Source of the DNA: Actinomyces succiniciruminis | Lineage (GTDB): Bacteria > Actinomycetota > Actinomycetes > Actinomycetales > Actinomycetaceae | DNA: 61,050 nt | Assembly (NCBI RefSeq): GCF_900002405.1 | Contig: NZ_LK995496.1 | Location: 7,026-68,075 of the forward strand | Reading direction: 5' to 3' | In this document: positions 20,818 through 23,151 of the stretch, one piece after another | Layout of the letters: each line of letters opens with the position of its first letter | Numbering within the stretch: the stretch's first letter is position 1 | The notes under the pieces: generated by a model | The model's database searches: none | Seen by the model: the letters and a program-made list of their open reading frames with translations, nothing else | Told to the model about the DNA's origin: nothing | Made by a program: the position numbers and the translations under genes

Positions 20818-21213
20818 CGCGGACGAGCCGACCTGTACGCCGGGTTCTGTTGCCGCCCGCCGTTACCGGCCTGGCGGTGGCGACCATCCATCTTGGACCA
20901 CCGTTGCCGATGGCCTCACGCGACCTACCCGCAGGCTCGGGCGAGCAGCCCTTTCCGCCTTGCGGCGGGCACCTGCTGCGCGGTCTTGCTCCGGGCGGGG
21001 TTTACCTAGCCGTGGCGGTCACCCGTCACGCTGGTGGGCTCTTGCCCCACCGTTTCACCCTTACCGGCATCTGCCGGCGGTTTGCTTTCTGTGGCACTGT
21101 CCCGCGGGTCACCCCGGGTGGCTGTTAGCCACCGCCCTGCTCTGTGGAGCCCGGACGTTCCTCGACCCGCCGGTTCCCCGACGGTACCGCGGCCGCCCGG
21201 TCGGCTCGTCCGC
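20818..21213 (-). ncRNA. rnpB: RNase P RNA, bacterial type A
   Basis: The catalytic RNA of RNase P, which trims the 5' leader from tRNA precursors. On the minus strand the 5' part has the conserved GAGGAACGTCCGGGCTCC (complement of 21147-21164), then GTGCCACAGAAAGC, AAGGGTGAAACGGTGGGGC and AAACCCCGCCCGGAGCAAG. The terminal P1 helix pairs CGGACGAGCCGACC near 21212 with GGTCGGCTCGTCCG near 20820, which sets the ends to within a few bases. The length of about 396 nt is normal for actinobacteria. Confidence 0.95.
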
Positions 21214-22962: not shown

Positions 22963-23043
22963 TGCCCCTGGCGGGGATCGAACCCGCATGCCCTCAGGCA
23001 GCGACTTTTAAGGTCGCCGTGTCTACCGTTCCACCACAGGGGC
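22963..23043 (-). tRNA. tRNA-Leu (anticodon UAA)
   Basis: On the minus strand a class II tRNA of 81 nt starts GCCCCTGTGGTGGAACGG and ends with the T arm GCGGGTTCGATCCCCGC and the acceptor strand. The anticodon stem GCGAC/GTCGC encloses CTTAAAA, giving UAA, which reads UUA. The variable arm TGCCTGAGGGCA pairs. CCA is not encoded (ACC followed by G). UUA is the rarest leucine codon in high-GC actinobacteria; the matching tRNA is the bldA product in Streptomyces. It is 17 bp from the abnormal tRNA-Ile. Confidence 0.95.
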
Positions 23044-23060
23044 CAGCATCTGCAATCCGG

Positions 23061-23151
23061 TACCCCCTCTGGGATTCGAACCCAGGACCATGTGCTTATC
23101 AGGCACGGACGAGGTATAAGCTCGCTGCTCTAACCACTGAGCTAAGGGGGC
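23061..23151 (-). tRNA. Abnormal tRNA-Ile with two anticodon-like stem-loops (UAU and GAU)
   Basis: A 91-nt cloverleaf on the minus strand: acceptor GCCCCCT/AGGGGGT, D arm GCTCAGTGGTTAGAGC, T arm CTGGGTTCGAATCCCAG, discriminator A, no encoded CCA. Between D and T arms there are two hairpins. The first is GCGAG-CTTATAC-CTCGT, whose loop gives UAU. The second, GTGC-CTGATAA-GCAC, has a seven-base loop identical to that of tRNA-Ile(GAU) and is followed by a normal five-base variable region, TGGTC. Either it is tRNA-Ile(UAU) with a long extra arm, or tRNA-Ile(GAU) with an inserted arm. Both readings specify isoleucine. Confidence 0.8.

Follow-up and report, generated by a model that had tools for sequence, protein, structure and literature searches.

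A tRNA-Ile gene of Actinomyces succiniciruminis encodes two anticodon-like arms, UAU followed by GAU, and tRNAs of the same design occur across the genus and in phages. We consider it likely that the GAU arm is a mimic of the identity element recognized by IleRS and that decoding of AUA falls to the UAU arm, with no need of TilS. The broader reading, which we favor on balance though less firmly, is that tRNAs with two anticodons form a class of their own, which is fixed in Actinomyces and widespread among phages; one of their arms would serve the ribosome and the other the synthetase.

The gene lies in the window, i.e., the whole 61,050-nt stretch of DNA analyzed, which originates from a 3.33-Mb draft genome with a completeness of 99.7%; all window coordinates given here are on the minus strand. 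ARAGORN called a tRNA-Ile(tat) at 23059-23151, and the Rfam tRNA model (RF00005) matched 23061-23151 with 61.3 bits, above the gathering score of 29. The whole tRNA (23061..23151; ARAGORN, Rfam) is 91 nt long without CCA, which is not encoded: after the 91 nt, the DNA reads CC and then G. The 5′ strand of the acceptor stem, GCCCCCU (23145..23151; Rfam), pairs with 23062-23068, and two of its pairs show compensatory change within the genus, as does one pair of the T arm CUGGG-UUCGAAU-CCCAG (23069..23085; Rfam). Acceptor and T stems comprise 7 bp and 5 bp, respectively, and the tRNA has A73. A G1.U72 pair at the acceptor end is common to tRNA-Lys(CUU), tRNA-Glu(UUC), and the CAA tRNA of the same genome.

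The first anticodon arm, GCGAG-CUUAUAC-CUCGU (23109..23125; ARAGORN, Rfam), holds UAU at 23116-23118; its stem has 5 bp and its loop both U33 and A37, as is typical of a bacterial tRNA-Ile(UAU), and it is the proposed decoding arm. Two nucleotides, CC, separate it from the second arm, GUGC-CUGAUAA-GCAC (23092..23106), which carries GAU at 23098-23100 on a 4-bp stem and is the proposed synthetase-recognition arm. Its loop is letter-identical to the anticodon loop of the tRNA-Ile(GAU) of the same genome. It is followed by AUGGUC (23086..23091), so that 10 nt lie between the second loop and the T stem, the same distance as for a genuine anticodon arm. With 23 nt between the first arm and the T stem there is no class I variable loop, and the variable arm has class II length (at least 10 nt). 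The two tandem stem-loops reported in an earlier note on this DNA are thus borne out by ARAGORN, Rfam, and sequence reading, and the acceptor, D, and T arms are as it described. A tRNA-Leu(UAA) adjoins the gene (22963..23043; ARAGORN, Rfam); it is outside the device and served as a control for variable (V) arm variability. The window also contains a class A RNase P RNA at 20820-21208 (RF00010, 263.8 bits), less than 2 kb from the tRNA pair.

Copies of 91-92 nt with 91-100% identity were found in all 36 other genomes of the genus in a first search, and a covariance model then recovered the 91-92 nt form at 115-120 bits in 49/49 genus genomes. These copies exclude an assembly error, which the earlier note had raised, and the gene bears no mark of a pseudogene. 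Among 164 family genomes belonging to 35 other genera, the covariance model found the two-arm form in none; the best matches listed there were ordinary tRNAs of 73-74 nt with at most 65 bits, and every best E-value outside the genus was far weaker. Thirty-two named records carried the pattern, of which 28 were Actinomyces, and three of the remaining four were no tRNA according to ARAGORN. The exact pattern, which would miss other D stems, was absent from 395 other genomes of the phylum (1/396, the one being the own genome), and a plasmid search for the two-arm tRNA gave no match.

Within the genus, the second stem is paired in 19/19 distinct sequences, with one compensatory C-G to U-A change in two of them, and pairing is preserved wherever the stems of the acceptor, T arm, and second arm have changed. 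The loop CUGAUAA and the entire first arm do not vary across 37 genomes. The adjoining tRNA-Leu(UAA), called in 24 of these 37 loci, has 13 different V regions, so the second loop seems to be held much more strongly than V arms usually are here, and a chance origin of the second arm is unlikely. A class II V loop is expected to be free to vary and mostly short, whereas this one has 7 nt and is invariant in the 37 genomes. The removable insert suggested in the earlier note finds no support at the DNA level.

Energy folding gave a less uniform picture. For the window tRNA folded alone, an alternative V-arm hairpin was 0.4 kcal/mol better than the second arm, and of 12 sequences folded, several adopted other structures. 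Some members of the genus, however, cannot form the competing hairpin intact. Folding of the lone RNA is thus ambiguous for several sequences, that of the window included, and the fact that the second arm is not favored in every sequence counts against the mimic reading.

The own genome has 49 tRNAs, including one normal tRNA-Ile(GAU). Its CAU tRNAs are of two kinds only, initiator and elongator, and the single elongator must therefore be tRNA-Met. No tRNA-Ile2(CAU) was seen in this genome or in the 49 genus genomes by tRNA calls and an elongator CAU pattern, which matched exactly once, always in the same Met-like sequence, in 49/49. A different, Ile2-like CAU tRNA was present in 66 of the 164 other family genomes, a figure counted and interpreted by hand from matches to a pattern that misses other D stems. 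TilS (TIGR02432) came near the cut-off in 0/49 genus genomes, with weak matches of about 24 bits in 14 and none in 35; the weak match of the own genome we take to be a GuaA-like ORF from its motifs. Matches to TIGR02432 occurred in 159 of the 164 other family genomes, 155 of them above the cut-off, the five genomes without any match being G077, G156, G164, G202, and G219, and in 21 of 22 relatives from the order outside the family, 20 above the cut-off. Since neither TilS nor tRNA-Ile2(CAU) was found in the genus, the two-arm tRNA-Ile(UAU) is the only predicted AUA reader in Actinomyces, and the locus appears to take the place of both. tilS is called essential in an abstract from the literature.

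Two further observations concern tRNA complements. One family genome without a TilS match (G077, genus g23, 99% complete) has an Ile2-like CAU tRNA, and the five other g23 genomes have TilS. In the own genome, L064 (G000:C80:70258-70331) combines a CAA anticodon with a variable loop that is short, in which it differs from the remaining tRNA-Leu genes; copies 93-100% alike are present in 35 of the 36 other genus genomes. L064 is probably not special to Actinomyces, because tRNAs 82-89% alike in overall sequence occur in other families.

A scan of viral contigs that required GAU in the second loop yielded eight tRNAs of the same design, one of which (L208) has a first arm identical to that of the window tRNA and is 81/97 alike overall. 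Two-arm tRNAs are present in Vibrio phages Luma and henriette 12B8 and in Acinetobacter phage vB_AbaS_qsb1, with the second loop CAGAUAA, and in Synechococcus phage SynMITS9220M01, with CAGAUUA; the records of all four label the gene only as "tRNA-Ile". Uncultured phages also carry the design. The last of the 32 named records with the pattern, a contig binned as a Thorarchaeota MAG and possibly a virus contig, holds a tRNA array (L122:979-1155) in which a tRNA-Ile(GAU) adjoins a long tRNA-Ile(UAU) with CUGAUAA, whose second stem needs a bulge.

A second scan was blind to the V arm, as it sought UAU tRNAs with any long insert of unspecified content. Among the matches listed, 119 places were read, giving 110 whole tRNAs, of which 75 were distinct. 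GAU occupied the anticodon position of a 7-nt second loop in 64/75 of these listed matches, or in 61/75 under a strict rule admitting Watson-Crick pairs only. Applied to tRNAs of the same viral loci, the strict rule found GAU in 0/66 Leu, 1/60 Ser, and 0/18 Tyr V arms (1/144 in total); phage Leu, Ser, and Tyr V loops mostly have 3-6 nt. The Leu control leaves out L441, a tRNA that ARAGORN called Leu(taa), because it has CUUAUAA as its first loop and GAU within its second; with it, the control would read 1/67. In wider viral sets, which mix GAU-requiring scans with others whereas the set of 75 comes from the V-arm-blind scan only, GAU was found in 66/81 UAU tRNAs by the strict rule, and a GAU arm in 71 of 82 long-arm UAU tRNAs. 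An earlier hairpin finder, which preferred stems extended by G-U pairs, had given 53/81 and was superseded by the fixed 7-nt test.

Eleven of the 75 listed tRNAs failed the GAU test, having GAC (four), AGC (three), GUA, CAC, UUU, or no hairpin (one each), and these count against the mimic reading. L371 is among them, with the loop CAGAUUA and a mismatched stem. The four with GAC, a valine anticodon, central in the second 7-nt loop are L400, L404, L425, and L472. Other viral long-arm UAU tRNAs without GAU (L375, L460, L379, L380, L445, and L447) have loops such as CUAGCAA and CUCACAA, and some of them may be Leu-like or of another virus kind.

The association was also examined in reverse, leaving the first anticodon open and requiring CWGAUWA as the second loop (119 of 120 stretches used). 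The first loop carried UAU in 60 of 61 distinct matches listed, and in 30/31 within loci not previously fetched; the single exception is a plain tRNA-Ile(GAU) that matched by accident. ARAGORN called 54 of these 60 listed matches Ile(tat); a shifted loop led it to call one Leu(taa), and it did not call five as whole tRNAs, one of which, L540, may be a chance match. An earlier reverse test over all viral loci, many fetched by UAU patterns, had given 61/62. Among the matches listed, the GAU second arm thus goes with a UAU first arm. For one viral two-arm tRNA (L581), the ARAGORN call is Ile(gat), based on the second arm, despite UAU in the first. The active two-arm tRNA entertained in the earlier note, as opposed to a pseudogene, accordingly finds sequence-based support in conservation, loss of the usual AUA system, and recurrence in phages.

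The strongest competing explanation is that the V arm is only structural, that IleRS, perhaps adapted, reads UAU directly, and that GAU is what remains of a duplicated arm. When phage UAU tRNAs were scanned for with no constraint on the variable region, a short loop was seen at 110 of the 114 sites that were classed among the matches listed; the other four were long-arm and all had GAU, and four further sites were unclassed. Short variable loops thus prevail among phage UAU tRNAs, so the second arm is not always needed, and Mycoplasma mobile is described as using a tRNA-Ile(UAU) without tilS (PMC4013482). ileS is single-copy in each of 30 genomes, and a comparison of IleRS from 12 Actinomyces with 18 relatives gave 13 genus-specific columns, which also agrees with this explanation. 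Remodeling of IleRS was considered as the answer itself and set aside, as none of the 13 columns stands out as that answer; some adaptation of the Actinomyces IleRS to U34 may exist. A purely structural arm would not readily account for GAU being kept while the stems and loop positions 32, 33, 37, and 38 vary: the second-arm stems of the phage tRNAs are diverse (18 kinds in a first count), and of 37 clusters formed by single linkage at 80%, 27 have GAU in all members (matches listed). The drifting V arm of the neighboring tRNA-Leu also argues against it, and we regard this explanation as improbable, although it is the one to be taken most seriously.

Position 38 counts towards tRNA-Ile identity in E. 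coli, and U34 is a poor signal for a typical bacterial IleRS. The discriminator and the anticodon are given as strong IleRS determinants, and position 37 also counts in E. coli (PMC9976931). IleRS would, given the strength of these two determinants, be the obvious reader of the second arm. In phages, the second loop is variable at positions 37 and 38, which counts against the mimic reading in view of their place in E. coli tRNA-Ile identity. Under the mimic reading, one tRNA-Ile would split the two jobs of the anticodon between two arms. On the ribosome, the first arm (UAU) would pair with AUA codons. The second, located where a long variable arm would be but spaced like a genuine anticodon arm, would present the GAU loop of an ordinary tRNA-Ile to IleRS, allowing isoleucine charging despite U34 and without lysidine. 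We infer that IleRS binds the second arm and that both arms are present in the mature RNA.

The details of the phage loops bear on which partner would read the second arm. U33 makes the turn needed for decoding. It is present in the first loop of 70 of the 71 phage two-arm tRNAs, whereas 62 lack it in the second loop, where 61 have A at position 33 and nine have U. Between the second loop and the T stem lie 10 nt in 50 of the 71 and 9 nt in 21, which is real anticodon-arm spacing with a 5- or 4-nt variable loop; on the 5′ side, the spacing runs from 4 to 10. Loss of U33 together with canonical T-arm spacing is expected if the reader needs the GAU arm in place and the ribosome does not. The alternative that either arm enters the A site, so that one tRNA reads AUA as well as AUC/AUU, draws on the fair cloverleaf that each loop forms with the rest of the molecule and on U33, which the Actinomyces second loop keeps. 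It is very doubtful given the 62 of 71 phage second loops without U33 and the separate tRNA-Ile(GAU) present both in the own genome and, beside the two-arm tRNA, in phage Luma. For the same reasons, the statement of the earlier note that both loops decode isoleucine is unlikely to hold.

The meaning of AUA was assessed in about 128,000 aligned codons from five Actinomyces species, only 1,776 of them from one species. AUA occurs at 0 to 2.4 per thousand in these species. At 112 sites in conserved contexts, giving 206 pairs, its partners were Ile (119), Val (41), Leu (21), and Met (12). Isoleucine is clearly the first partner, so AUA appears still to mean isoleucine in Actinomyces, and a reassignment is not supported. 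The Ile share of AUA (58%) is lower than those of ATT (71%) and ATC (70%), which counts against the mimic reading. Charging by LeuRS or SerRS, with the V arm conferring another identity and AUA read as another amino acid, would fit the class II length and the nematode nev-tRNA-Ile(UAU), which is reported to be charged with leucine in vitro (PMC4300185). The 119/206 alignments of AUA with isoleucine and the near absence of a 7-nt GAU loop from phage Leu and Ser V arms speak against it, and we give it little credence. That the second arm is a decoy, e.g., against host nucleases cutting the tRNA-Ile anticodon loop, is most unlikely. A design common in phages would suit it, but in a bacterial genus where TilS was not found no other tRNA is predicted to read AUA, and the GAU arm comes with a UAU first arm in nearly all matches listed.

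The two-arm tRNA is far more diverse in phages than among its closely similar Actinomyces copies. Because of this greater diversity, which is the one argument for the direction, the gene may have passed from a phage to an Actinomyces ancestor, where the phage-derived gene would then have allowed the loss of TilS and tRNA-Ile2. Co-transfer with a phage tRNA-Leu(UAA) was considered and rejected: seven of eight phage loci carry both genes, but the Leu genes are only 55/86 alike, and family genome G123 has a tRNA-Leu(UAA) that is 77% alike to the window neighbor.

The reading of AUA as isoleucine is shared with the tRNA-Ile2(CAU)/TilS system of most bacteria, from which Actinomyces differs in that the gene encodes UAU instead of CAU, TilS was not found, and the tRNA has an extra arm. 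The tRNA-Ile(UAU) of M. mobile and Lactobacillus plantarum has a short variable loop. UAU is shared with these two, the latter known from a title cited in PMC9976931, and the absence of tilS with M. mobile; unlike in Actinomyces, no second anticodon-like arm is mentioned in the portions of these sources consulted. The nematode nev-tRNA-Ile(UAU) shares both UAU and a variable arm but is described as Leu-like, whereas in Actinomyces the arm ends in a GAU loop of 7 nt and isoleucine is the main partner of AUA in alignments. Allo-tRNAs share the long variable arm, and UAU is frequent in their 8/4 group, but their acceptor/T stems are described as 8/4 (PMC7609411) or, in an abstract on another form, 9/3, and not 7/5. 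The proposed mimic also has a parallel in anticodon mimics in mRNA, those of yeast HisRS and the E. coli ThrRS operator, where an anticodon-like hairpin recruits a synthetase (PMC6542539); these are regulatory mRNA sites, whereas the proposed Actinomyces mimic sits inside the tRNA to be charged.

No report of a two-arm tRNA, and no counterpart to the parting of anticodon identity from decoding, was found in the non-preprint open-access literature searched. To our knowledge, in tRNAs whose anticodon is read by the synthetase, the same loop serves charging and decoding. The RNA itself is a tRNA-Ile(UAU), and the part that would be new in kind is the division of labor. If this reading is true, a separate identity loop permits charging and decoding to be uncoupled, and a simple design rule would allow codons to be allotted to amino acids with no modification enzyme involved; in that case, valine could be brought to AUA by the four phage tRNAs whose second loop has GAC. 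It would also provide phages and a bacterial genus with TilS-free reading of AUA, and would explain how tilS could be lost.
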